Virus record (IMG/VR): IMGVR_UViG_3300032116_000124
Coordinates: 1 to 64,000 of that record
Length of the DNA stretch: 64,000 nt
Direction: 5' to 3' (one strand)
Origin: a virus
Of the stretch, positions 6,625-57,083 are shown one piece after another (position 1 is the stretch's first letter; the number at the start of each line of letters is the position of its first letter). The position numbers and the translations under genes are program-made. Under the pieces are notes generated by a model. That model worked only from the letters and a program-made list of their open reading frames with translations, did not search any database and had not been told where the DNA came from.

Positions 6625-6696
6625 CTGGCTCGGTAGGACTCGAACCTACAACCGGGCGGTTAACAGCCGCCAGCTCGACCATTGAGCTACGAGCCA
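6625..6696 (-). tRNA. tRNA-Asn (GUU)
   Basis: 72 nt. Acceptor TGGCTCG/CGAGCCA, discriminator G, anticodon stem GGCGG/CCGCC with loop CTGTTAA, T arm GTAGG-TTCGAGT-CCTAC. Begins 6 nt after tRNA-Gln, so both come from one transcript. Confidence 0.93.
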
Positions 6697-6701
6697 ATAA
6701 G

Positions 6702-6772
6702 TTCCGGGGCTAGGATTCGAACCCAGACAAAGAGAACCAAAATCTCTGGTGCTACCGTTACACTACCCCGGA
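6702..6772 (-). tRNA. tRNA-Gln (UUG)
   Basis: 71 nt. Acceptor TCCGGGG/CCCCGGA, discriminator A, anticodon stem AGAGA/TCTCT with loop TTTTGGT. First of a Gln-Asn pair. Confidence 0.93.
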
Positions 6773-6774
6773 GT

Positions 6775-6939
6775 CTACATATCATACTCACGACGCCACT
6801 GTTTGTCAACGGCCTTGCGGGTACGCTGTCGCTTGGGGCGATTGTCGAACGTAGTATCCGTTTTGTGTTCCCTGTGTCCCTGACGCATTTCCCACGGCAT
6901 AACCTTCTTGATTTTGATTACGTTGCGGCGTGGCCTCAT
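6775..6939 (-). CDS. Basic hypothetical protein overlapping the next gene
   Basis: Very basic protein (about 54 aa from ATG 6939; 41 aa if it starts at 6903) with DNRPKRQRTRKAVDKQWRRE near its end. Overlaps the C-terminal third of the membrane-anchored protein at 6806-7165 in another minus-strand frame. The composition looks genuine and RNA- or DNA-binding-like, but there is no convincing ribosome-binding site. One of the two frames may be chance. Confidence 0.4.
   Translation of the reverse strand: MRPRRNVIKIKKVMPWEMRQGHREHKTDTTFDNRPKRQRTRKAVDKQWRREYDM
6781..6809 (-). promoter_or_regulatory. Sigma-70 promoter for tRNA-Gln/Asn
   Basis: TTGACA, 17 nt, TATGAT, 9 nt before tRNA-Gln and inside the 3' end of the overlapping coding frames. 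Confidence 0.8.
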
Positions 6940-7165
6940 ATCGTCGTTGTTGTGGAGGGTAATCATACCATGTACCATTTTCGTGTTGGTAATAAACCTT
7001 ATTTGTGTTAGGATCGTAAGCCATCAAACAATACTGAATCGGATAGTTAGTTTTTACACTATCGGTTTGATTTGTCAAGGGTTTGAGTTGACCGTTTGAA
7101 TAATCCTTATACCCATTATAAACAAAACCCAATAATGCCAAAACTATTGGAATCCATTGTACCAT
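6806..7165 (-). CDS. Membrane-anchored hypothetical protein (119 aa)
   Basis: From ATG 7165 (AAAGGG 7 nt upstream) the protein starts MVQWIPIVLALLGFVYNGY, one transmembrane helix, followed by a polar domain and a low-complexity Gln/Gly/Tyr-rich tail. An upstream ATG at 7201 would add 12 residues. A TTGACA...TACAAT pair overlaps the start codon, which would put transcription inside the gene, so that pair is probably fortuitous. Confidence 0.6.
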   Translation of the reverse strand: MVQWIPIVLALLGFVYNGYKDYSNGQLKPLTNQTDSVKTNYPIQYCLMAYDPNTNKVYYQHENGTWYDYPPQQRRYEATPQRNQNQEGYAVGNASGTQGTQNGYYVRQSPQATAYPQGR

Positions 7166-7273
7166 ACCGTTTCCCTTTGTCAAGAGCCGCTTCGTTCCCA
7201 TACCCTAGTATCGACATTCTGTAGACATCACTTTAAAAAATCTTTGGCATGGTATTCGCCGCCCGCGGATTTG

Positions 7274-7303
7274 CCCTAAGTCCTTTATGGCCAAAGGTTT
7301 AGG
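7274..7303 (-). repeat. R1 stem-loop copy
   Basis: CCCTAAG...TTTAGG outer arms and CCTTT...AAAGG inner arms, then a GC-rich block and GATTTTTT in the minus direction. It follows tRNA-Arg directly and so probably terminates its transcript. Confidence 0.7.
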
Positions 7304-7377: not shown

Positions 7378-7382
7378 GTCAA

Positions 7383-7596
7383 CGCCGCAAGCCCCGGTGG
7401 CGTCCCACCGAGGCTATGCGGTTCGATAGTGTTGTCATCTTACTATCTTATATAGTAATAATCTCTAAAGGGTAGACAACTTCGTGGTTACCATCCACTT
7501 ATCTGGTTGGTTAGACCCCTTTAGGTTGCACCTTTGGCCTTGCAACGAGCCATCTTACCTATTACGCGGGAGTTACCCCGCCGCACTATGCCTAAA
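7383..7596 (-). ncRNA. Putative structured RNA upstream of tRNA-Arg
   Basis: About 210 nt between the promoter at 7602-7631 and tRNA-Arg, with no gene. On the minus strand there are several perfect helices: GCGGG/CCCGC, GTTGCA/TGCAAC, CTAAAGGG/CCCTTTAG enclosing GTGG/CCAC, GTTGTC/GACAAC crossing the previous helix, TTACTAT/ATAGTAA, and a long GC hairpin at 7384-7423. Crossing helices suggest a pseudoknot or two alternative folds. No known RNA family is recognised. A 10-residue frame (MARCKAKGAT) is included. Confidence 0.55.
7384..7423 (-). terminator. Strong GC hairpin before tRNA-Arg
   Basis: CCGCA and CCACCG-type arms form a stem of about 15 bp with a 4-nt loop. No T-run follows; tRNA-Arg starts 7 nt later. 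It may be a processing or pausing hairpin rather than a true terminator. Confidence 0.5.
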
Positions 7597-7621
7597 ATCT
7601 ATTTATACTGGCATAGTCCAG
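7562..7621 (-). promoter_or_regulatory. Promoter/inverted-repeat cassette, copy 1
   Basis: About 60 bp nearly identical to 7784-7842. In the minus direction ACTATGCC and GGCATAGT flank the -10 (TATAAA), and a GCGGG...CCCGC hairpin follows. The inverted repeat straddling the -10 looks like an operator or a 5'-end RNA hairpin. Confidence 0.65.
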
Positions 7622-7631
7622 TGATATTCAA
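7602..7631 (-). promoter_or_regulatory. Sigma-70 promoter of the 7.4-kb RNA
   Basis: TTGAAT, 18 nt, TATAAA. The -35 overlaps the stop codon of the 44-residue gene. Confidence 0.6.
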
Positions 7632-7762: not shown

Positions 7763-7783
7763 AATATTCTCTCTTTCTTATTA

Positions 7784-7842
7784 CGCGGGTCGAAACCCGC
7801 CGCACTATGCCTAAAACCTGTTTATACTGGCATAGTCCAGTT
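7784..7842 (-). promoter_or_regulatory. Promoter/inverted-repeat cassette, copy 2
   Basis: Second copy of the 60-bp cassette, differing at a few positions from 7562-7621; the hairpin loop differs (GTCGAAAC versus AGTTACC) while the GCGGG/CCCGC stem is kept. Confidence 0.65.
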
Positions 7843-11579: not shown

Positions 11580-11607
11580 AGTCTACCATCTATTATCGGC
11601 CTGTCAA
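11580..11607 (-). promoter_or_regulatory. Sigma-70 promoter of a four-gene operon
   Basis: TTGACA, 16-nt spacer with CCGATAATAGA, TAGACT. Confidence 0.8.
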
Positions 11608-11619
11608 GAGGCTTTCTTT

Positions 11620-12104: not shown

Positions 12105-12364
12105 TCTTCCTCCGGTGGAAACAACCTGTTCCAAGCCTCATCATCGTTACCCGTCATCAGAATCTCACGCTGCTCCGCAGTCAGATGCGGAAAGCATTCT
12201 TGAATCAAACCACCATTAGCCCAACGATTAGCCTCGTCAAGATACGTCACAATAGAAAAACTATTACCGCTATTTGTAGTGCCACTAAAAGTCACGGTGC
12301 CACCATCATGGCTAACCCAACGCTCAACACGATCACTCAAACCAAATCTCTGAAAGCCAAGCAT
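12101..12364 (-). CDS. Phage protein of a widespread unknown family (87 aa)
   Basis: The C-terminal part (LIQECFPHLTAEQREILMTG, then NDDEAWNRLFPPEEE) fits the ..FP.L...qREflmTG....W...F pattern common in phage proteins of unknown function. AAGGAGAAAAGTT before ATG; own promoter at 12386. Confidence 0.65.
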   Translation of the reverse strand: MLGFQRFGLSDRVERWVSHDGGTVTFSGTTNSGNSFSIVTYLDEANRWANGGLIQECFPHLTAEQREILMTGNDDEAWNRLFPPEEE

Positions 12365-12385
12365 AACTTTTCTCCTTGTGCTACC

Positions 12386-12414
12386 ATTCTACTCTAGTAT
12401 TATCGTCAAGTCAA
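12386..12414 (-). promoter_or_regulatory. Sigma-70 promoter
   Basis: TTGACT, 17 nt, TAGAAT; lies just past the terminator of the structured RNA. Confidence 0.75.
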
Positions 12415-12418
12415 TAGG

Positions 12419-12462
12419 AAAAAACCAGCGAATCTTTTACGCCCCGATTCTATTGTCCTGGT
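12419..12462 (-). terminator. Intrinsic terminator of the 12.5-kb RNA
   Basis: ACCAG/CTGGT enclosing GAATC/GATTC, followed by six Ts in the minus direction. Confidence 0.8.
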
Positions 12463-12693
12463 GGCTACCCTGTTACGGACCATAGGAAACCGCCCACGGA
12501 AATCCTTCCTAGGCATAGTTCATGACTCATGCTGTCTGGCTCTTGGGAACGGTTACTGGTTGTATTGTAATGAGTTTAGGCTGCTCTCGCCGTTTCCGTG
12601 CTGCGCTTTCCTAGTTGGCTCTTTTATACGTTATTTATCCAACTAGCCTACTCATTGTATTACTCGTGGTCTGGATGCAATCCCACATAGATT
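12419..12693 (-). ncRNA. Putative structured non-coding RNA (275-400 nt)
   Basis: No ORF of note, yet flanked by two sigma-70 promoters (12700-12727 and 12825-12852) and a clear terminator. Expected start about 12693, or about 12818 from the outer promoter. Helices seen: AATGAGT/ACTCATT (12650-12656 with 12569-12575) plus AGGC/GCCT closing a multi-branch domain; CCTAGTTGG/CCAACTAG (12610-12646) inside it; TAGGAA/TTCCTA near 12484-12511; the terminator stem. I see no tmRNA, RNase P or group I intron core signature. Large phage RNAs such as GOLLD or ROOL are known, but no resemblance can be claimed by eye. Confidence 0.65.
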
Positions 12694-12818
12694 AGCACTA
12701 CTATACAGCGTATAAGCCCGCTGTCAACCCACAGCCCGATGTGACGGTAGGTTTATCGTAATGGCTTATCCTAATCTAGTCCCTCAGCATGGACCCACGG
12801 ATGTTTGTTTTGTCTTAC
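12694..12818 (-). other. Upstream leader of the structured RNA
   Basis: Transcribed only from the outer promoter. Contains a GTCC...GGAC hairpin and no ORF with a ribosome-binding site. Confidence 0.4.
12700..12727 (-). promoter_or_regulatory. Inner promoter of the structured RNA
   Basis: TTGACA, 16 nt, TATAGT. Confidence 0.75.
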
Positions 12819-12824
12819 TCTTTC

Positions 12825-12852
12825 ATTCTACACTCTATTATCGGCCTGTCAA
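12825..12852 (-). promoter_or_regulatory. Outer promoter of the structured RNA
   Basis: TTGACA, 16-nt spacer with CCGATAATAGA, TAGAAT: the arm's standard form. Confidence 0.8.
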
Positions 12853-12897
12853 GAGCATGATCGTGAGAAAATAAAAGATTCCGCCCGCCCGCGGCCT

Positions 12898-12930
12898 CGC
12901 CCTAAGTCCTTTGTTTCCAAAGGGTTAGGG
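12898..12930 (-). repeat. R1 stem-loop copy
   Basis: One of the best copies: CCCTAA...TTAGGG outside and CCTTTG...CAAAGG inside. Preceded and followed by the usual GC block and ATCTTTTATTTTC. Confidence 0.75.
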
Positions 12931-12955
12931 TTAGAGGCTTTAGCGAGAAGACGGC

Positions 12956-13363
12956 TTAGAACATCATTGCCGCAACACCGCTCTTGAACAGAGCCCCACC
13001 CAAGAGGGGGCGACGGCAGTTCACAACGCGCTCTGCGTAGAAGTTGCGAACAGTACCATCGGGACTCTCACCAGTAATAAGGTGATGAGTACGCTTGAAC
13101 TTACTATCATTTCGTCGGTAGTTGCTAGTAGCATTCAGCCGACTAATCTGATTATCATTCAGCGTACAAACATCACGCACCTTGACCATATAACGCTCAG
13201 GATCACCCTTGTGAGGCTGGAGATACTCAAAGTTATACACTTCTCCAACCCTAGCCGAACTCAGACTAGCGTTCACGCCAGAGTAAACATGAAACAACAC
13301 AAAAGCAACAACAACACCAACCACACCAACGGCAAACAGACCATAAGAAAAAACATCAGTCAT
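12956..13363 (-). CDS. Membrane-anchored hypothetical protein (135 aa)
   Basis: Residues 7-27 (YGLFAVGVVGVVVAFVLFHV) are one transmembrane helix. The soluble part (GEVYNFEYLQPHKGDPERYM, VKVRDVCTLNDNQISRLN..., TVRNFYAERVVNCRRPLLGG) is beta-rich. Own promoter whose -35 overlaps the stop of the upstream gene. Role unknown. Confidence 0.65.
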   Translation of the reverse strand: MTDVFSYGLFAVGVVGVVVAFVLFHVYSGVNASLSSARVGEVYNFEYLQPHKGDPERYMVKVRDVCTLNDNQISRLNATSNYRRNDSKFKRTHHLITGESPDGTVRNFYAERVVNCRRPLLGGALFKSGVAAMMF

Positions 13364-13775: not shown

Positions 13776-13809
13776 GCAGAAAATAAAAAATTTTGGCGGC
13801 CGGCCAGCT

Positions 13810-13847
13810 TGCCCTAAGTCATTGTGTTTAAACAACTTAGAGCGAGC
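13810..13847 (-). repeat. R1 stem-loop copy
   Basis: CTCTAAGTTGTTTAAAC... against ACTTAGGGC, next to the GGCCGGCC block and AAAATTTTTTATTTTC; follows the stop of 13852-14058. Confidence 0.65.
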
Positions 13848-14119: not shown

Positions 14120-14162
14120 TTTCGCTGACTACGCCCACGCCGCCCAAATCCGTAGGATTAGG
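14120..14162 (-). repeat. R2 repeat after tRNA-Glu
   Basis: Minus strand: CCTAATCC-TAC-GGATTTGG, GC block, GTAGTCAGCGAAAGTTTTT. Here it follows a tRNA and ends in a T-run, so it may be a terminator. Confidence 0.65.
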
Positions 14163-14172
14163 CAGGACAAAA

Positions 14173-15387: not shown

Positions 15388-15420
15388 CAACAAAATAAAA
15401 GATTCCGCGGCCCCGCCCGC

Positions 15421-15455
15421 TCGCCCTAAGTGCTTATGCACAAAGGGTTTGCGGC
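15421..15455 (-). repeat. R1 stem-loop copy
   Basis: GCAAACCCTTTGTGC...GCACTTAGGGC type element right after the stop of 15461-15691. Confidence 0.65.
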
Positions 15456-46301: not shown

Positions 46302-49300
46302 ATGTCAAGATCTTTTAATTTAACAGCAGAATTAAATTTAAGAGGACCATCTAATATTCGGCCGATCATTGCTGATATTAGAAGGCAGTTGACTGGTATA
46401 ACAGCAAATGTTAATGTAACAGTTAATAATACGACTACTCGTAATGTCAATAATCTACAACAGTCTGTTACTAGATTAAACACCGCCCTCACCGCAACAA
46501 GAGGAACAGCAACAAATGCTACCGCAGCACTAAATGCTTTTGCAAGAGCAGCGGCAAATGTTAATAATAATATTGGAAATATACCTCGTAATTTAACTAG
46601 AATTAATACAGGTGCTGGTGCAACAACTACTACTCTTAATCAAGTTACTAGAGCCACTCAGCAAGCAACAGTTGGTTTTGAAGACTTTGGTAGACAATCA
46701 GCATTGGCTGTTAGACGTTTTGCTGCTTTTGCAACCGTGACTAGCGTAATATATAGATTCTCTAATGCGGTTACTTCTGCAACATCAGAATTCATAGATT
46801 TTAATAGAGAACTTGTTAGAGTTGCACAAGTTACTGATTCTAGTTTGTCAGAACTTAGACCACTAGTCTCTCAGATCACTAATTTGTCTACTAGCTTAGG
46901 CGTAGCATCTAAAGATTTGATTCAAGTTTCTAGTACATTAGCACAGGCTGGTTTAAGTGCAAGAGACACAGAAAAAGCTCTTAGGGCTCTTGCTCTTAGT
47001 GCGTTAGCCCCGTCGTTTGATAGCCTAAGCGATACAGTAGAAGGATCTATTGCTTTAATGAGACAGTTCGGCATTAGTGCAGGAGATTTAGAGGATGCAT
47101 TGGGTAGTGTAAATTCTGTTGCTGCAAAGTTCGCAGTTGAAGCAAGCGACTTAATTACTGCTATTCAGCGTACCGGCGGTGTGTTTGCAACAGCAAGTAA
47201 AGGTGTTAGCGAGGGCAAGGATGCTCTTAATGAGTTTTTAGCTGTATTTACAAGTATTCGTGCTACTACTCGTGAAAGCGCAGAAACTATTGCTACAGGC
47301 TTAAGAACTATTTTTACTCGTATTCAAAGAGCGGATACTATTGATGCATTAAAAGCATTCGGAGTTACTCTTACTGATCTAGAAGGTAAATTCGTTGGTC
47401 CATATGAAGCTGTAAGGAGACTAAGCGAAGGATTAAGCAGACTCGATCCTAGAGATTTAAGATTTTCTCAAATTGTTGAAGAACTTGGCGGTTTTCGACA
47501 GATTGGTAAAGTGATTCCACTTATTCAGCAGTTTGCCACAGCACAAGCAGCGCTAAAGGTTGCTCAACAAGGACAAGGATCATTAGCAAAAGACGCATCA
47601 ACTGCACAACAAAGTTTAGCAAATCAAATTGCTAAAGTACGAGAAGAATTTACTGCTCTTATAAGATCATTAGGAGAAAGTTCCACATTTCAAACATTCG
47701 TTAGATTAAGTTTGGATCTTGCTAGCGCATTAATTAGATTGGCTGATAGTGCTAAAACTGTATTACCAGCATTAACTGCTATTGCTGCATTTAGGGGCGT
47801 CTCCGCTCTTACAAGGTTTGGTGCTGGATTTGCTGGTGGACTAAGAAGACAAAATAATGGAGGTCCAGTAAGAGGATTTGCTAGGGGAGGAATAGTTCCA
47901 GGGGTAGGCAGCGGAGACACTGTTCCAGCTATGTTAGAAGCTGGAGAATTTGTAATTAGAAAAAAAGCAGTAGAAAAAATTGGAGCTGGTAATTTACATA
48001 AAATAAATAAATATGCCACTGGAGGTAAGGTCAAAGATCTTTTATTAGATAAGCCACTACTAAAAGCTAAATATGATACATCTAATATTGAGGATCTATA
48101 TAGTTTTATAAGGATAGATAGGAGCAAACAAAATAAATTATCACAAAGTAGAGAAAAATATAGAGATAAAGCAGAACAAATATGGAGTCAAGCATCTTCT
48201 GCTTACTCTTCTAAGGGATCTCTTTCTGGTGCTAATACTTTAATAAGAAGAAAAACTGGAATAAATCTTCCATCTAAATTAAGTAGTAAAGATTTAAATC
48301 CAAATAATAAAGATAGTCAAAGACTAAATAAAATTCAAGGATCATTGGCAGAAAAAGAAGTCTATAATAAAATGGGTAATCTAAAACAATTACCAACAAA
48401 AGCTGGTGCTGACTTTACAATTGGTGGATCCGCAATCAACTTTGTTGAAGTTAAAAATAGACTAGAACCAACATCAGATAATGATTTAAGAGGAAAAGCA
48501 TTACTAGGTCATCAATACCTTAGTGGAAAACAATATCTTAATAATAAGTTAGATAAAACTCCTAGACTAACTATTTCTTTATTTTCTAGCAATGAAGGAG
48601 ATTATAAGAAAAAAAACTTTGGAGGATTAATTCAAAAATTTGCTCTCGGAGGAAAAGGAAGAGCATTAGGAGCACGAAGTAAATTTAAAGAATTAGACGC
48701 AAGCGAATTAGATAAACTTAGTACAGCTGATTTAATTAAGTATGCAAAAAGACAGGCTCGTGATATTTTTAGTACAGGCGGGGCTGGGATGGCGATGCGT
48801 AGCAGATTTATTGAAACCCCAGCAAATAAAATAATTCCAGAATTAGAGCCTCATTTAACATCATATATGGGGAAAAAAGGATTTTGGAGAGAAGAGATTG
48901 CCCCCTTTGGAAGACCATCAAAACAACAAGCAGCGAAAGCATCAAAAACAGGAAGAGAAGCAGCTCTTAAAAAACAAGAAGCAAGACAAGCAGACGAAGT
49001 TGCGGCCAGAGCACAACAGTGGAAATTAATACGATCAGGATCTAAAATAGATTCTTATTTACTGTCTTCTTTAAAAGATCCTATTTTATCTGACTACAAG
49101 TCAGCCAAAGCTGGGCAGCCGCTAGCAAAAGCTTTTCATGATACTAGATTAAGACAAGCTGTTAATCAAGCATTAGATAATTATGATGATTTTGATTATT
49201 CTCCAGCAAAGATCGATAAACTAGTTAGTGGAATGGCATCAAAAAGATTTGCAATAGGAGGATCTGTAGAAGATAAAGTTCCGGCACTATTAACTCCTGG

Positions 49301-52300
49301 TGAATTTGTAATTAATAAAAAAGCTGCTAGCAGAATAGGAGCTAGTAGACTACATCAATTAAATAGAGCAGATAGAATTAAAGGATTTAATAAGGGCGGA
49401 GCTGTTGGAGGAATTCAGAAACTTGCTGCCGGCGGCTTTCCAACGGCTTTAACACCAGCTATGAGTGGACTATCCGCAAAAGAAACGGCTAGATTAAGTT
49501 CTGCTATAATGAATAATGTTGATGCTTTTAATACTTTGGAGGCTCAAGTTTCTGCTCTTCCAACAGATCAAATGTTGAAAGCTATGAGAATATTTGCCTC
49601 TAAACTTGAGGGAGGAGCAACAGATATAGACCGAGCGGCTACAGAAGCGGCAACATTGGCTCAATCTGGCGGTGGAGGAAGTAGACAGTCTAAAAAAGCA
49701 AGAGTAGCAAATTCTGGAGTTACGGTTGGGCCAGCGAATCCAACAACCGGAATAGTAGAAACAAGACCGACAACTAATCCTGCTGTTAGCGGTTTTGCTG
49801 CAAGTCAAGCTAGAATAAATCAAATATCTGCAAACGTTGGACAATATCAGGCTGGTCAAGATGTTGTTAGTCGTAGAGATACTGTATTAGGTGGTACTAC
49901 TTCAGGAAATCTATCAAACGCTGGAATGCAACGACTTGCTCAACTAAACCAAACAGGAGGAGGATTTGCTCAAAGAGGTCAAGATTATGCTCAAAGAGCA
50001 CAGGTCTCATCTCAAAAAACTTATTCTGCAAGTTCTTTTGATCCAACACAAATTTATCAAGGATTGGCTAAATTAAATCAGGGAATTGCAACAGCAGCTA
50101 ATGGTTTAACTAGCTTAACTACAGCATCTAAAACTGCTGGTAGTGGTATAATGTCTTTAGGCAAAGGAGCATTAGGAGCAGTTGGACGAGGAGCAGGAGG
50201 ATTAGTTAGTAAAATTGGAGGAGGAGCTTTAAATATGGTGGGACTTGGAGGATTAGCTTCCAAAGGAGCAGGAGCAGCAATGGGTGGTGGTGGCGGTGGT
50301 GGAATGATGGGCATGGTGGCTATGATGGCAGCAGGGCCATTATTGGAAGCTGCAAGTCAGTCAATGGGAGGAGAAAAAACAGAAGCTGGAAGAAATACTA
50401 CTGCTGTTGGTGGCGCTATGATGAATTATGCTGCTATTGGAGCAACACTAGGAAGTGTTATTCCTGGAGTTGGAACCGCTTTGGGAGGAGTTGTTGGAGC
50501 AGCGGCTGGTCTTGTTGTGGGTCTTCAGGATGCCACAAAAGCTAATGAAGAATATGCACAGAGTCAAAGAGAAGCAAAGGCCGCAACAGCATCAGATAAG
50601 AGTGGAAAAGCACTAGAAGCATACATGGCCAAACCTGGAGCTGCTCAAAAACAAGCTTTCATGAGTTCATTTGCTGCCACATCAGAAGCAGAAGCAGCCG
50701 TAAAAGCAGGAACAAAAAGACAAACAGCTAGTAGTTTTGGAAAAATGTTAGGATACCAAGATGAAAATATAAATGATTTTGCAGCAAGAACGGCTAAAAC
50801 ACAAACAGCAGGAGCCGATCAAGCCAAGCAATTTTTAACTGCTGAGATGATGAGAACCGGTAAAAATTTTGGTGAAATTAGTAAAACTATGAGTCCAGAA
50901 CAGTTTAAAACTCTAGCGACTAATATTGCAGAAGCAGATGAAACATATGCTTATTTCCAGATCCAAAGAGCTAATGAAATTAAAAAACTTAGAGATAGTG
51001 GTCGAGGAGCAGAGGCAGATGCTTTACAAGCACAGACCAATGCTGAACAAGAAAATTTAGCTAAAAATATTGCTGAACGTCAATTAGCAGAAGCATCAGC
51101 GGCCGCTCAGGCCAAAGCAGCATCAGAAGCTTCTAAAAAGCTAAATATGGTAATGATGCAAGCTGTTATGAGTCTTGAAAAATCATTTAATACAATGGAA
51201 GAGGTATTAAATAGATCAAGTTTTGAACTTGGACAAATATCTGGCAAAGCAGATGAAATTTTCAGTGGCAAAGCATCATTAACTAGCTCTACTTTTGCAC
51301 AAACAAATAATGTTCTTCAAAATCCAAATGCTTACTCTGCGAAAGAAAGACAAAATGCTATAAATAGTTCTGCCGCCAGAATGGGACCAGCCGGGGCATT
51401 AGTTGGTCGAGTAGCCACATTTGGTGCTCAAGCAACAGAAGAGGCTTCTAGAAGGGCTAATGCTGTGTTCAATGGTGGAGGAGATAACGAAGCTGTTGGT
51501 AATGAGGTTACTAGAAGTTTAACAAATAATATTCTTGCCACGTTTGGTCCAAATAGTTCCATGTCCCAAACCCTGATTGATGGTGTTAAACGAAGCGTAG
51601 ACGAGGCAGTAAAAACAGCAAAAGAAAATGGAGAAACGCTCGATCCAAATGAATTGGTAGAAAAAGCCACAGGACCACTAAATAGAGCTGCTCAACAAGC
51701 GGGTCAATTGTTAATTAAAAATAATGAGAATGTTGCTAAACACTTAGAAGAGTTGGGTAAGGTTGCTGAAAGAGTAGTAGAAATAGAAAATAGAAGAGTA
51801 GAAAGAACAGCAGCATTGGTAGAAATGCAAGCTCAGGGAGGAATATCAACCAAAGAAGCACTAGGACAAAAAGTTTCTTTAGACGAAAGAATGAGCGCAA
51901 GATTTGCAGGAAGTAGAGCGAGATTAGGAATACAGGACCAAGCTAATTTTACTCCTCAAAATATTGCCAATATGAGATCTCAAGCTCAAAGAGAGCAAGC
52001 TGCATTACAATCACAAATAGATAGAAGATCAAAAGATGTTGGATCAGACCCAACTGGCAGAGCAGCGAGAGAGGTTGCTAATTTACAACTAAAACTTGCT
52101 AAGGTAAATTCCACAATAGAACAAACTAATAAAGAATTAGAAGATTTACCAGGAGCATTAGAAGGAGCTATTAGTGATGTAACATCAGAGATTCAAAATA
52201 GAGTAGCAAAATTAGATGCTCAAAAACAAGCATCAGGAGCTTTTGCTGAAAAATTAGTAGGAAGCACTCCACAGGAATTGGCTGAATTAGGTAGAACATT

Positions 52301-55300
52301 TAATTTATTAGATTCTACTCTTAGAGGACAAATAACAACAGTGCAGCAATCACAAGTTGCTCAACAAGCATATATTCAATCTATACAAGAAGGAAAAACA
52401 GCACAAGAAGCAATGACTGATGCTCAAGCAGCATTTGCTAATGAAAATAAAAAAGCATTAAGCTTATTTGGAGAATTGACTCAGATCGCCGGAATAGAAG
52501 GCCCAGAACTTGACTTAATGAAAGCAGATTTATTAGAAAATTTTGCAAAAGCACAAGGAGCAGGACTAGAAAATAATCCATTCTTCCAAAGATTGTTAGG
52601 AATACTTAGACAAGATCCTGCTCAAAGAGCACAAAACGATCCAGTCTTAAAAGCTTTACAAGCAAGAATGACAGAACTAAGAGAGCAGCAAGTAGAAGCT
52701 GTAAGACTACAAAACGAAGCTGATAGAGGTATTCAAAAACAACTATTAGAACAAGTTGGTCAAAATATTATAACAAGTTTGGAAGCTACGCAAAGAGCAT
52801 TTGTTGCAGCAATGAACGATATAGCAATGAGAATGGGAGCGGCTCCTCCTAGACCAATGCCAGCCAGACCTCGTTCTACCGGAGGATTAATATACGCATC
52901 AAATGGACAATATGTTAATTTTCAACCAAAAGGAACAGACACAGTTCCTGCTATGTTAACTCCGGGCGAATTTGTGGTTAATGCTAAATCCACAAAGGAA
53001 AATTTAGGTTTATTAATGTCTATAAATAATAGTCGCGGAGGCAGAATAAGTTATCTTGCTGATGGCGGAATGTCTGATATTTCCGGAGTCTCATCAAGAA
53101 CTCAGTCTGCAAAACAAGAAGATATGGCCAGAAGTGGATTAATTAACCAAAGAGCACTAAGTAATAAAATTGATACCGTTAAAAGCTTATCTAATAATAT
53201 TAATTCTACCACATCATTTACTAAAGATAATCAAATTCCATCATTAGATGGATCAATAGATAACAATCAATCAATTAATAATAAACAATTTAAATCATTA
53301 TTAATTGGAGTAGATAAAATTTCCAAAGTTATAGAGAATAAGAGTTCTAAGGGATTATCTAGAGGAGGAGTCGTTTATGCCAGCAGCGGAGGATACATAG
53401 GCAACGGCACTCCCGCTATGCTTTCGCCGGGAGAGTTTGTGGTCAACCAAGCTTCTGCTAAAAAATATGGTGGAGTTTTACAAGCTATAAATAGACAAGA
53501 TGGTGGAGGCACACCATTTAGCGTTCCTGTATTAGATATGACTAAAGATAATAAAGATGGTGTTTTTGTCAGAAGTCGTTACAGAGGACCGAGAGATAAG
53601 TTTATGTCCGCTAGAGAAGCAGCATCCGCTGGCATACCGTATAGCACTGGCACAGGATTTAATACAACTTATTTTGGAAAAAATACAGGAATTACTAAGG
53701 CAGACTTTGATGCTTTAACTAAACAAGACGAAAAAGATTTTTCTATATTCAATCATCCAACATTGGTTTCTCAAGGAAGACAAGCAGCTTTTACTGCTGG
53801 CTTGGCAGAAGGAGTGCCGGTCGGTGTCGCTTCATCAACAGCCGGAACCGCAGCAGCCGCTGGAACAGGAGTTGCGGCTACGGCACTAGGAGTAACAGCA
53901 CCAGCATGGCTACCAGTGGCTTTAGCAATAACTGCTGCGATTGGAGCAGGATATGCTATGTCAAAATTGGCAAGAGCAACTTCTAATAAAGCTCTTGCAG
54001 CAGGAGGCAGTAATGTTACGATGGATATGATGCAGGAAGATTATCCGTTATCTTTTATGGCTGGATCAACACTTGGAGACGCAATTGGTGGAGTAGGCGG
54101 GTCTAAATTAGGCTCACAAGCGTTCTCTGGAACATTATCTAAACAACAAGAGAAATTATTAAGACTAAAAACTATAAAAGAACGTAAAGAAGTTAACGCT
54201 GCGATATCTGAATTTAGAGAAAGAGTTGTAGCAAGATGGGAGGATATGTCTGAATTGGAAGCCTCAGCAATTTCTAGAATGTCAGGGCGTAAAACAGATT
54301 TAACTGGTCAAGAAATAATTGATTCAGCTACAGCAAGATTAAAATTATTAAATCCAAAAGCTAATCCAGATGACTATCTTCCAATAGATTTAGACACAAG
54401 GGTTATTAAGGATCCTTTTGGTGATGGTACTATTGGATGGCACAGAAGGAAAGGTAGAAAAGGAACACCAGAAATACGAACAACAGATCCTCAAGATTTA
54501 ACTGTTTTACCTCATGAAGCTATTCATGCTATGATTGGAGAAAATCCTCAAATCCGTGATCTAACGATGGATTTCATCATCAAACATGAAGATTTAATTC
54601 AAGAATGGTTATCTAAAACAAAAATGACTGGATATAATTTAGATACTATGAAATATGGGACTTCATACAGAATGAGGCAACTTGAGACGAAAATTAATTA
54701 TACAGATATTCCATCGGTAATTGAAACAGAAAAACTTTTTGCTAGAGCTTTAAGCGGTAAAGAAACTGCTTCATTAGATTTTATACAAAACACAAAAGGT
54801 GGATTAGAATATATTGATAGATTATTAAAACAACAGTCTTCCAGAAGTTTTTTCACAGATGAGTCAGAAATAATAAAATGGGTTGATAAAAAATGGGATA
54901 GATCTAGTTTAGATTCCCTCAAAAAAACCATAGATGATTTTAGAAATAGAGATAAAAAACTTTATGAAGATATAATGACACATATGGGACCTGGAGGGTA
55001 TCCCGGAGTTGGAACAAAAAGACTTCCAAAAGATTTGTTAGAATCTTTGAACGAAATATTTTCTCCACATGCCTCCAGAGCTGGGCCAGAAGAATTTTTA
55101 GCAACATTAGCTCAAGATGATTTAACAGGAAATGCTGCTGGTCAACAGTTGCAAAGACTCGTACAAAGAGAAATATTTGAAAAAGCCGATCAAATAAAAT
55201 ATAAATTTATGGGCTTTCCTGAACGACCCATTGTTGGAGTACCAGAAGGATTAGAAGGATTTAATAATGGTGGTATGGTATATGCTTCAGAAGGCAAATA

Positions 55301-57083
55301 CATAAATTTCAAACCAAAGGGCACGGACACTGTTCCCGCGATGCTAACTCCAGGAGAGTTTGTTGTTAATGCTAAAGCCACTAAAGATAATTTATCGACA
55401 TTGCAAGCTATTAATACTGGATACTATGAAAGAGGTGGAATTGCTGGTGTTGATCCTAGTCCAAGTAATTTTGCAAGAAGTATTGTTGGCATGAGAGGAG
55501 CCAGAATTAACCAATTAGCACAACAGGGTAAATATTATGTTTATGAGGGTAATACAGCAATATTAGATGATGATAATGGTAGATTTCCTAATAGATATGC
55601 GTCTGTTAGCGGAGCCAGAAATATACAAGAAGCAATTGAGCTTGCTAAACAGAAATATGAATGGTTCGAAGGAGGCGGATATTCCCTTAAAGAAGCCTCT
55701 GCGATTGAAAGAGGACGTATGGGTTCGACAACATTGGCAGATAAAATAATAGACGAATTACAAGATCAGATAATTGAGGGTGGTCCAAGATTATTTACCT
55801 CAACAGGATTTAATCAAAAAAATAAACAAGATAAAATTAATGAAATTATAAAAAAAATAGATGAACAAGGCGCAAATCCTCAAGAATTATATAGGAAAGC
55901 CACCAAAAGACAAAATTATTTAAGACAAGTTGAAAATAATACTAGACTTGGTCTTAATGTAATAGCAGGATCTGATAGAACAATAAATCTCGGAGGAAGA
56001 AGAGAACTATTAGCAACAAAGCTTCTAGAATTACAAAGAGATTATGCTCAAAAAGAATTAAGTCTTATACCTAGAGTTTGGGATGATATAGCCACAATGA
56101 AAGGATATCAAGGCTTACCAAGAGATTACACAACATCTTTTAATGCTCTTAATCCTAGTAGTCTTCCTGGTCCTGAATATTTTAGTTCTGGCGGCATGTC
56201 AATGCCTAAAAAATTTGATAAAACAACCGATCCGGCAGATCGTATTTTGCAAAGAGCTAATGAAGCAAGATTAAACAACTTTTCGAATATATACGAGTCC
56301 CTTTTAGTGAAAAAATATGGAAAATCTATCAAGCCATTTCGTAATACTGATGTTTTAGAAAATCTAAGACAATATCAAGAATTTGATTCTCTTTCTGATG
56401 AAGAACTAAGAAGTCTAGAAACACAACATATACAATCAAAAATAAATAAACAATCAAGATTAAATAAATTCAACTCAGGAGGAATAGTATACGCAAACAA
56501 AGGAACTTTAGTTCCTTATCAGCCCAAAGGCACAGATACTGTTCCAGCAATGTTAACTCCAGGAGAGTTTGTAATAAATAGACAAGCATCTCAAAAACAT
56601 CTTGGATTATTACAATCTATCAACAATGGTAACTATTCAAGAGGAGGTCCTGTTTACCTTGCCGAAGGAACACAAGGAACACAAGCGTTTGATGCTAACA
56701 TGACCTATTTATCGGATATCTTGAAAAAAGGAGCAGATACTCTAAATACAGCATTTATAGAAGCTGTTAGAAAATTAAATAATATTGCTGATAATTCTCC
56801 TCAAATAAGACAGGGTACATCAAACGGTGTATCTAATAATCAGAGCAATCCTTTGGCTAATATAGAAGCATTGGGCAATAGATTAGACCAGTTTATAGAA
56901 CAACTAAAAAATGCGGTGCCTTCAACAGTAACTCTAGAGGTTCCAACAGCTATTCCAGTTAATGTTAATATAAATGGAGCAAGCATTCTTAAAGATGTTC
57001 TTGGTGGACCAATAGGAAATATCGTACAAAAAGCTATCAAAGATGCATTTGATGCAAAAAGTAGACAAAATGAAGGGTATTAA
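46302..57083 (+). CDS. Tape measure protein with embedded enzyme-like domains
   Basis: A 3593-residue protein. The first 450 residues (VGFEDFGRQSALAVRRFAAF, RTGGVFATASKGVSEGKDAL) are a TP901-type phage tail tape measure core. Six AGEFV/PGEFV modules (about residues 547, 998, 2220, 2375, 3016, 3419; T(P)AMLTPGEFVVN..., then a Gly/Lys linker) separate further regions. Between modules 1 and 2: GADFTIGG...NFVEVKNR (D704, E716, K718), a PD-(D/E)xK nuclease-like motif. Between 4 and 5: a hydrophobic stretch (about 2506-2553) and PHEAIHAMIGE (H2738, E2739, H2742), a zincin HExxH, with GPEEFLATLAQ later as possible third ligand. Length sets tail length; the extra domains may act on DNA ejection or the cell wall/membrane. 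Confidence 0.85.
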   Translation: MSRSFNLTAELNLRGPSNIRPIIADIRRQLTGITANVNVTVNNTTTRNVNNLQQSVTRLNTALTATRGTATNATAALNAFARAAANVNNNIGNIPRNLTRINTGAGATTTTLNQVTRATQQATVGFEDFGRQSALAVRRFAAFATVTSVIYRFSNAVTSATSEFIDFNRELVRVAQVTDSSLSELRPLVSQITNLSTSLGVASKDLIQVSSTLAQAGLSARDTEKALRALALSALAPSFDSLSDTVEGSIALMRQFGISAGDLEDALGSVNSVAAKFAVEASDLITAIQRTGGVFATASKGVSEGKDALNEFLAVFTSIRATTRESAETIATGLRTIFTRIQRADTIDALKAFGVTLTDLEGKFVGPYEAVRRLSEGLSRLDPRDLRFSQIVEELGGFRQIGKVIPLIQQFATAQAALKVAQQGQGSLAKDASTAQQSLANQIAKVREEFTALIRSLGESSTFQTFVRLSLDLASALIRLADSAKTVLPALTAIAAFRGVSALTRFGAGFAGGLRRQNNGGPVRGFARGGIVPGVGSGDTVPAMLEAGEFVIRKKAVEKIGAGNLHKINKYATGGKVKDLLLDKPLLKAKYDTSNIEDLYSFIRIDRSKQNKLSQSREKYRDKAEQIWSQASSAYSSKGSLSGANTLIRRKTGINLPSKLSSKDLNPNNKDSQRLNKIQGSLAEKEVYNKMGNLKQLPTKAGADFTIGGSAINFVEVKNRLEPTSDNDLRGKALLGHQYLSGKQYLNNKLDKTPRLTISLFSSNEGDYKKKNFGGLIQKFALGGKGRALGARSKFKELDASELDKLSTADLIKYAKRQARDIFSTGGAGMAMRSRFIETPANKIIPELEPHLTSYMGKKGFWREEIAPFGRPSKQQAAKASKTGREAALKKQEARQADEVAARAQQWKLIRSGSKIDSYLLSSLKDPILSDYKSAKAGQPLAKAFHDTRLRQAVNQALDNYDDFDYSPAKIDKLVSGMASKRFAIGGSVEDKVPALLTPGEFVINKKAASRIGASRLHQLNRADRIKGFNKGGAVGGIQKLAAGGFPTALTPAMSGLSAKETARLSSAIMNNVDAFNTLEAQVSALPTDQMLKAMRIFASKLEGGATDIDRAATEAATLAQSGGGGSRQSKKARVANSGVTVGPANPTTGIVETRPTTNPAVSGFAASQARINQISANVGQYQAGQDVVSRRDTVLGGTTSGNLSNAGMQRLAQLNQTGGGFAQRGQDYAQRAQVSSQKTYSASSFDPTQIYQGLAKLNQGIATAANGLTSLTTASKTAGSGIMSLGKGALGAVGRGAGGLVSKIGGGALNMVGLGGLASKGAGAAMGGGGGGGMMGMVAMMAAGPLLEAASQSMGGEKTEAGRNTTAVGGAMMNYAAIGATLGSVIPGVGTALGGVVGAAAGLVVGLQDATKANEEYAQSQREAKAATASDKSGKALEAYMAKPGAAQKQAFMSSFAATSEAEAAVKAGTKRQTASSFGKMLGYQDENINDFAARTAKTQTAGADQAKQFLTAEMMRTGKNFGEISKTMSPEQFKTLATNIAEADETYAYFQIQRANEIKKLRDSGRGAEADALQAQTNAEQENLAKNIAERQLAEASAAAQAKAASEASKKLNMVMMQAVMSLEKSFNTMEEVLNRSSFELGQISGKADEIFSGKASLTSSTFAQTNNVLQNPNAYSAKERQNAINSSAARMGPAGALVGRVATFGAQATEEASRRANAVFNGGGDNEAVGNEVTRSLTNNILATFGPNSSMSQTLIDGVKRSVDEAVKTAKENGETLDPNELVEKATGPLNRAAQQAGQLLIKNNENVAKHLEELGKVAERVVEIENRRVERTAALVEMQAQGGISTKEALGQKVSLDERMSARFAGSRARLGIQDQANFTPQNIANMRSQAQREQAALQSQIDRRSKDVGSDPTGRAAREVANLQLKLAKVNSTIEQTNKELEDLPGALEGAISDVTSEIQNRVAKLDAQKQASGAFAEKLVGSTPQELAELGRTFNLLDSTLRGQITTVQQSQVAQQAYIQSIQEGKTAQEAMTDAQAAFANENKKALSLFGELTQIAGIEGPELDLMKADLLENFAKAQGAGLENNPFFQRLLGILRQDPAQRAQNDPVLKALQARMTELREQQVEAVRLQNEADRGIQKQLLEQVGQNIITSLEATQRAFVAAMNDIAMRMGAAPPRPMPARPRSTGGLIYASNGQYVNFQPKGTDTVPAMLTPGEFVVNAKSTKENLGLLMSINNSRGGRISYLADGGMSDISGVSSRTQSAKQEDMARSGLINQRALSNKIDTVKSLSNNINSTTSFTKDNQIPSLDGSIDNNQSINNKQFKSLLIGVDKISKVIENKSSKGLSRGGVVYASSGGYIGNGTPAMLSPGEFVVNQASAKKYGGVLQAINRQDGGGTPFSVPVLDMTKDNKDGVFVRSRYRGPRDKFMSAREAASAGIPYSTGTGFNTTYFGKNTGITKADFDALTKQDEKDFSIFNHPTLVSQGRQAAFTAGLAEGVPVGVASSTAGTAAAAGTGVAATALGVTAPAWLPVALAITAAIGAGYAMSKLARATSNKALAAGGSNVTMDMMQEDYPLSFMAGSTLGDAIGGVGGSKLGSQAFSGTLSKQQEKLLRLKTIKERKEVNAAISEFRERVVARWEDMSELEASAISRMSGRKTDLTGQEIIDSATARLKLLNPKANPDDYLPIDLDTRVIKDPFGDGTIGWHRRKGRKGTPEIRTTDPQDLTVLPHEAIHAMIGENPQIRDLTMDFIIKHEDLIQEWLSKTKMTGYNLDTMKYGTSYRMRQLETKINYTDIPSVIETEKLFARALSGKETASLDFIQNTKGGLEYIDRLLKQQSSRSFFTDESEIIKWVDKKWDRSSLDSLKKTIDDFRNRDKKLYEDIMTHMGPGGYPGVGTKRLPKDLLESLNEIFSPHASRAGPEEFLATLAQDDLTGNAAGQQLQRLVQREIFEKADQIKYKFMGFPERPIVGVPEGLEGFNNGGMVYASEGKYINFKPKGTDTVPAMLTPGEFVVNAKATKDNLSTLQAINTGYYERGGIAGVDPSPSNFARSIVGMRGARINQLAQQGKYYVYEGNTAILDDDNGRFPNRYASVSGARNIQEAIELAKQKYEWFEGGGYSLKEASAIERGRMGSTTLADKIIDELQDQIIEGGPRLFTSTGFNQKNKQDKINEIIKKIDEQGANPQELYRKATKRQNYLRQVENNTRLGLNVIAGSDRTINLGGRRELLATKLLELQRDYAQKELSLIPRVWDDIATMKGYQGLPRDYTTSFNALNPSSLPGPEYFSSGGMSMPKKFDKTTDPADRILQRANEARLNNFSNIYESLLVKKYGKSIKPFRNTDVLENLRQYQEFDSLSDEELRSLETQHIQSKINKQSRLNKFNSGGIVYANKGTLVPYQPKGTDTVPAMLTPGEFVINRQASQKHLGLLQSINNGNYSRGGPVYLAEGTQGTQAFDANMTYLSDILKKGADTLNTAFIEAVRKLNNIADNSPQIRQGTSNGVSNNQSNPLANIEALGNRLDQFIEQLKNAVPSTVTLEVPTAIPVNVNINGASILKDVLGGPIGNIVQKAIKDAFDAKSRQNEGY

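Follow-up and report, generated by a model that had tools for sequence, protein, structure and literature searches.

Large structured RNAs such as GOLLD and ROOL are encoded by phages, and to our knowledge no function has been established for either of them. Phages also carry RNAs that mimic ToxI (PMC3475682) and CRISPR repeats (PMC10651486), and phage tRNAs counter defences that cleave tRNA (PMC10264068, PMC11555353). CRISPR effectors that cut tRNA tails are known as well (PMC12851939). No description of an array like the one reported here was found in the literature, in a survey whose coverage left out most subscription papers and preprints. As far as nucleotide sequences allow, it can be held with near certainty that the minus strand from 12818 to 12419 of the DNA examined is a non-coding RNA transcription unit. 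With the same confidence it folds as a string of independent closed domains, A-C-B, and is a member of a family of phage RNA arrays in which a near-constant A...B pair is accompanied by interchangeable extra domains, or beads. Module A is a tRNA-like four-way junction with a pseudoknotted domain at the place of the anticodon arm, and several of the extra domains appear to be pseudo-tRNAs that lack a normal anticodon arm.

The stretch of DNA analysed here, termed the window, is a 64-kb part of the 75-kb record of an uncultivated virus. The RNA lies in a 591-nt gap devoid of open reading frames, put at 590 nt in the preliminary description, between a start codon at 12364 and a stop codon at 12956 of flanking genes that are both on the minus strand. 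From the minus-strand promoter at 12852-12825, transcription is inferred to start near 12818; the earlier limits of 12419 and 12818 coincide exactly with the predicted 400-nt transcript, which runs from the promoter to a hairpin and T6 (Table 1). The clear terminator noted previously was located as a hairpin followed by T6, reading GAATC (12450-12446)...GATTC-GCTGG-TTTTTT and ending at 12419. Two promoters had been proposed as well: the one at 12852-12825 (11/12 matches) is upheld, and the other, TTGACA 12727...TATAGT 12700, lies inside module A and is rejected. Its letters belong to conserved helices of that module and other A lineages have TTGCCT there, so that on the strength of these alignments it is probably not a promoter. 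The leader GTAAGACAAAACAAA, the same as in the window, recurs in many relatives. A plus-strand RNA was rejected, as promoter, terminator and the conserved module order in relatives are all on the minus strand. No conserved reading frame was found in the array, the longest open reading frame within the window's copy being 21 aa.

Table 1. Coordinates of the predicted features of the RNA array and of the adjoining promoter in the window.
Feature	Position	Strand	Basis
Array promoter, TTGACA-16-TAGAAT	12825..12852	-	11/12 matches; same promoter type (TTGACA..CGATA..TAGAAT-like) upstream of 44 distinct arrays
5' leader, GTAAGACAAAACAA	12805..12818	-	Sequence; start site inferred
Module A, tRNA-like cloverleaf junction	12660..12804	-	Covariation; RNAalifold; 145 bits with covariance model R1
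Linker A-C, AGTAATACA	12656..12664	-	Sequence; AATACAA linker recurs between modules
Module C, optional closed domain between A and B, ATGAGTAGGCTAGTTGG...CAGCCTAAACTCAT	12569..12655	-	Fold z -2.9
Linker C-B, ACAATACA	12561..12568	-	Sequence; recurrent linker
Module B, closed junction	12424..12560	-	99.7% of cells paired; 5/15 pairs two-sided
Terminator, module B arm 3 + GCTGG + T6	12419..12450	-	Sequence
Promoter of next gene (start codon 12364), TTGACT-17-TAGAAT	12386..12414	-	10/12 matches

Rfam 15 yields no match to the RNA at the gathering score when the window is scanned, and no hit of any kind emerges even at E<=10 when 12350-12960 is scanned alone. The same applies, at the same two settings, to the covariance models of GOLLD and ROOL, and neither RNase P RNA, group I intron nor any other Rfam 15 family matches at the locus. 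For tmRNA there is no match with Rfam or ARAGORN and no tag reading frame. The preliminary description had been unable to recognize tmRNA, RNase P or a group I intron by eye, and Rfam 15 finds none either. Tandem near-identical short repeats of the ToxI type are absent from the array, whose beads belong to different families, and a reading as a tandem-repeat, ToxI-like array is thereby ruled out. The minimum free energy of the whole region is no better than that of shuffles on either strand (z -0.66 and -1.01), and single-sequence folding energy was dropped as evidence for structure. On energy and the null result with Rfam alone the case for an RNA would have been weak. The evidence for a structured RNA is comparative and consists of covariation among relatives.

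Module A was aligned from 43 distinct copies by sequence only, and a structure drawn by hand from L046, one of the numbered related loci, was counted on all of them. Pairing is possible in 95.6% of cells, as against 88.7% in shuffles, and 22 of the 43 pairs, pseudoknot included, show two-sided changes compared with 10.0 in shuffles. The covariation score is 0.226, which falls to 0.109 on shuffling and to no more than 0.073 when the partners are slid; not one of 500 shuffles attains any of the observed values. When the partners are slid by 1-3 columns, pairing falls to 34-40%. The shuffles do not remove relatedness; the slide control retains it, but somewhat favours a structure drawn from one aligned sequence. 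RNAalifold, working without the hand-drawn structure, returns the same four-way junction with 28 pairs, 14 of them with two-sided changes, and adds a covarying acceptor pair that has 13 such changes. For the three core helices of module B, counted on 43 distinct copies, shuffles give 0.9 two-sided pairs against the five observed, and the covariation score is 0.123 compared with 0.080 after shuffling and at most 0.046 after sliding. Covariation beyond composition and relatedness controls, the general criterion for a structured RNA, is met by both modules. The earlier proposal of a new structured non-coding RNA is consequently borne out by strong covariation in 43 distinct relatives together with the lack of an Rfam match, so that neither of the two sequence-based grounds named in advance for rejecting it applies, and the helix said to close a multi-branch domain proved to be real: it is that of module A (12804-12660).

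The junction of module A is made up of an acceptor-like helix (CGTGG/CCACG), a D-like hairpin (GTC/GAC), a connector (TAGATTAG/CTAATCTA) and a T-like hairpin that abuts the 3' acceptor strand. In place of an anticodon arm, the connector leads to a pseudoknotted domain, whose pseudoknot helix (ATAAGC x GCTTAT) is paired in 100% of cells and shows a swap from G-C to C-G in 16 copies. Several lineages have a T-arm-like stem with a 7-nt T-type loop: CTGGG-TTTGATT-CCCAG in L014 (hairpin CTGGGTTTGATTCCCAG), GGGGG-TGCGATT-CCCCT in L080 (hairpin GGGGGTGCGATTCCCCT) and AAGG-TGCGAAT-CCTT in L044. The loop at this position is shorter in the main lineage, which includes the window. Neither Rfam nor ARAGORN calls module A a tRNA in the window or in the relatives scanned, and the cloverleaf topology itself is supported; since no program makes the call, 'tRNA-like' denotes topology and not family membership. 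Three kinds of bead in relatives, t1 to t3, score 28.7-33.3 bits with the Rfam tRNA model (gathering score 29). Their anticodon arm is replaced or enlarged, the anticodon region of t1 consisting of several hairpins, and ARAGORN calls only one of the t beads scanned (L061 1054-1131, tRNA-Glu TTC). There is a slim chance that the tRNA-like beads are unusual tRNAs or translation factors that, like tmRNA, are aminoacylated or act on the ribosome, a reading that could draw on the acceptor/T-arm-like stacking in modules A and F, on the CCA (ACCA/GCCA) that follows the acceptor end in many A copies and on the tRNA genes nearby. However, module A matches neither tmRNA nor tRNA, a tag reading frame is absent, many A copies have no CCA, anticodon arms are replaced and many beads are not tRNA-like at all.

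Module B is composed of a closing helix P1 (ACCAG/CTGGT), arm 1 (ACCG/CGGT), an optional arm 2 and arm 3 (GAATC-GGGGCGTAAAA-GATTC). The inner hairpins of arm 1 are interchangeable between copies, and arm 2 is missing in L012, L042, L052, L069 and L081. Module C is absent in L012; outside the window, a pattern search found it in L052 only, as a distant homologue, C2, placed before A. The linkers that join A, C and B are unpaired and of the AATACAA type. A U-tract and then a new promoter come after B in the window and about 20 relatives, which indicates that the last arm of B also serves as a terminator; in the other loci, about half of the arrays, what comes next is the start of a gene or a further RNA module. 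As a linker, a ribosome-binding site and an ATG come directly after B in roughly half of the arrays, the RNA might be regarded as acting in cis, as a 5' leader or riboswitch, on the gene that follows. This is very improbable, given the U-tract endings in the window and about 20 relatives, where the next gene has its own promoter, and given that the following genes vary from phage to phage.

A neighbouring protein led to seven related contigs, one of which (L012) shares promoter, leader and both the first and the last domain with the window and lacks about 100 nt of the middle. Contigs were then searched with exact patterns from the first domain (A), followed by the last (B), and modules A and/or B were found in about 74 other IMG/VR contigs of up to 233 kb, a number counted from the locus list. 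Exact patterns miss divergent relatives, and the counts are hence lower bounds. The array RNA was not found in GenBank phages and plasmids, matches of 25-30 nt to GenBank phages being attributable to chance, and exact 21- and 22-mers of A and B have no match in GTDB species genomes.

When 44 distinct stretches from promoter to B were cut into modules, an A-type module preceded the final B in every one (in L061 it was recovered by the covariance model and not by the seeds). The other modules fall into about 30 families, with zero to five before A and zero to two between A and B. Examples are A-C-B in the window, A-B in L012, G-H-A-E-B in L017, P-Q-A-F-D-B in L053 and P-V-I2-t1-S-A4-B in L076. 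The arrays were defined through B and the promoter, and many contigs had been found through A, so that B and promoter are present by construction; contigs found through B alone also carry A, with the exception of L070 and of L079, a contig-end fragment. Across 34 module representatives the mean fold z is -2.1, better than shuffles on average; covariation was computed for A and B only, and the other modules rest on this measure. Module T, in L014 (8600-8707), L069 and L078, is a recurrent RNA module outside the A...B pair, and module R, located after B in L046, L061, L069 and L078, ends with CGTAAAACTATC, which resembles the CGTAAAA loop of B arm 3. Modules G, H and S upstream of A (e.g. in L017, L048 and L065) hold promoter-like TTGAYR-17-TAYAMT in their 3' halves, which may be chance or nested promoters for the next module.

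An identical A allele occurs in different arrays, namely A-D-B (L015), G-A-B (L024), G-A-F-B (L040) and G-H-A-B (L043), and module Q has one slot in L053 and L080 and another in L072 and L088. A is duplicated in L044, L049 and L073, and B in L091; A stands without B in L035 and in L087, where B is degraded, and B without A in L070. Truncated copies of B are found in L082 and L087. To judge from these arrangements, beads are exchanged between phages, and the mosaic of exchangeable domains around a near-constant A...B core, several of them tRNA-like, goes beyond what the preliminary description could see. RNA-gene cassettes that are selfish or mobile, have no function in common and spread through recombination at the promoters and short linkers would leave recurrent short linkers, mosaic combinations, the same linkers beside genes and tRNAs, and truncated B copies such as those just mentioned. 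Such cassettes are nonetheless an unlikely explanation: selection acts strongly on the structure of A and B, and their order A...B is kept.

The strongest rival is a single large ornate RNA of the GOLLD/ROOL kind, perhaps self-assembling, in which A and B would be the 5' and 3' core and the variable beads peripheral or linker cargo. It owes its standing to the near constancy of A and B, which nearly always occur together and in the same order, and to the variable linker that separates the conserved domains of GOLLD and ROOL, which in GOLLD sometimes contains tRNAs; both of these RNAs also come from phages and lie near tRNA islands (PMC12286853). It is somewhat doubtful even so. Besides the absence of an Rfam match, A and B have a closing helix each and are often only a few unpaired bases apart, no pairing between them was found in a search that was not systematic, and the solitary and duplicated copies of A and B described above do not sit well with one indivisible core.

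The same RNA is found on contigs of up to 233 kb, from which it is inferred that the window is probably only part of a longer genome. In the left 20 kb of the window, seven tRNA genes and two Pistol ribozymes accompany small genes of the minus strand, many of which have a TTGACA/TATAAT-type promoter to themselves; the right part encodes terminase, head, tail and further structural proteins on the plus strand. There, a 3593-aa reading frame (46302-57083) probably encodes a giant tape-measure protein with inserted domains. The small proteins neighbouring the array belong to no Pfam family. Host assignment through related phages fails: the best matches of the terminase, from Bacillus phages and the Microcystis phage MaeS, share only about 25% identity with it, no cultivated phage is close, and the only match of the capsid is a remote one, to phage G. 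Beside the array of L048 a PEP-CTERM protein is encoded (6692-7039, minus strand; NCBIfam TIGR02595, 24.4 bits with a cut-off of 16; Pfam PF07589), and similar sequence is present beside L055 and L060. A C-terminal PEP-CTERM sorting signal is unusual for a phage protein, and its occurrence beside L048 suggests a host with exosortase-type sorting, presumably from a group such as Planctomycetota or Verrucomicrobiota.

The two Pistol self-cleaving ribozymes (7560-7622 and 7779-7841, minus strand; 54.3 and 57.1 bits) lie about 220 nt apart, where they flank a small reading frame and adjoin tRNA genes; a further Pistol is present in L061 (5102-5164). An ORF-poor segment between the second Pistol and tRNA-Arg (7380-7555, minus strand) displays apparent hairpins, CGTTGCAAGGCC...GGTGCAACC, and is possibly another structured RNA. 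Directly after tRNA-Glu lies a conserved element without an Rfam match, TAATCCTACGGATTTGGGCGGCGTGGGCGTAGTCAGC (14120-14165, minus strand), which is near-identical after a tRNA in L008, L009, L010, L011 and L013 and is found without a tRNA in L012. A hairpin, CCCTAAGTCCTTTGTTTCCAAAGGGTTAGGG, with a GC-rich tail recurs on the minus strand at 7259-7303, 11582-11610, 12890-12935, 13778-13829 and 15392-15449; hairpins of this type sit between small minus-strand genes, have similar counterparts in relatives and are probably shared terminators.

Taken as a whole, the array looks like a fast-evolving RNA tool that acts on the host cell, its job being inferred. The reading favoured here, held only tentatively, is a processed array of RNA decoys directed against RNA-acting or defence proteins of the host, for which expression, linker cutting and action in trans are all inferences. 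The array would be transcribed during infection from its strong host-type promoter and cut within the AATACAA linkers; the tRNA-processing enzymes of the host might do this at the tRNA-like ends. Once freed, the beads would work in trans, mimicking RNAs so as to bind host RNA-acting proteins and keep them occupied; the most plausible targets are defence factors that target tRNA or make other use of RNA. Modules A and B might have a binding surface of their own and in addition contribute to stability, to processing and to the formation of the 3' end, and the remaining beads could be swapped as opponents change. Three points favour decoys: the set of beads changes between close relatives while structure is preserved, several beads resemble tRNAs that are unable to decode, and the use of RNA mimics (PMC3475682, PMC10651486) and tRNAs (PMC10264068, PMC11555353) against defences has precedents in phages. 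Fast modular turnover combined with constrained structure would be the expected trace of an arms race. Against decoys, most beads have no recognized cellular RNA to mimic, and there are no data on expression, processing or targets. The near-constant A...B order argues for a core machine and not a loose collection of decoys, and what stands after B in about half of the arrays is not a terminator but a gene or a further RNA.

It is conceivable, without being probable, that the array represents a type of viral genetic element not known before. Such a combinatorial array, with RNA domains that fold independently, many of them tRNA-like, being put together and traded by phages around the near-constant A...B core, would be to RNA what anti-defence islands are to proteins. 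The existence of about 30 small, separable and naturally shuffled domains makes domain-by-domain binding tests of such RNAs possible. Should the beads be decoys, nature would supply in them a library of RNAs that inhibit RNA-acting bacterial defences, and in module A a new fold joining a tRNA-like junction to a pseudoknot.

Among the systems described to date, ToxI and phage pseudo-ToxI also comprise phage-borne arrays of structured units with single-stranded linkers, and ToxI works by mimicry (PMC3475682); its repeats are near-identical and 36 nt long, whereas the array lacks tandem repeats, and its beads, about 52-150 nt in size, belong to different families. RNA anti-CRISPRs (Racrs) are likewise small phage RNAs that mimic a host RNA to block defence (PMC10651486), but they are solitary mimics of CRISPR repeats and the beads are larger folded domains. 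A tRNA-like end joined to pseudoknots is a feature shared with tmRNA, from which the array differs in the lack of an Rfam or ARAGORN match and of a tag reading frame and in its very different size and order. Like phage tRNA arrays and anti-defence tRNAs, it presents transcribed tRNA-like units near genuine tRNA genes in large phages, for which a counter-defence role has been suggested (PMC10264068, PMC11555353); in contrast with them, the pseudoknotted domain of module A replaces the anticodon arm, and most beads are not tRNAs and cannot decode. GOLLD and ROOL are, as here, large structured phage RNAs of unknown function, located near tRNA genes and containing pseudoknots, with conserved domains and a variable linker region that in GOLLD sometimes holds tRNAs (PMC12286853). 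The array, which matches neither Rfam model, is distinguished from both by separate closed beads on short linkers, by about 30 swappable families and by a tRNA-like core domain.
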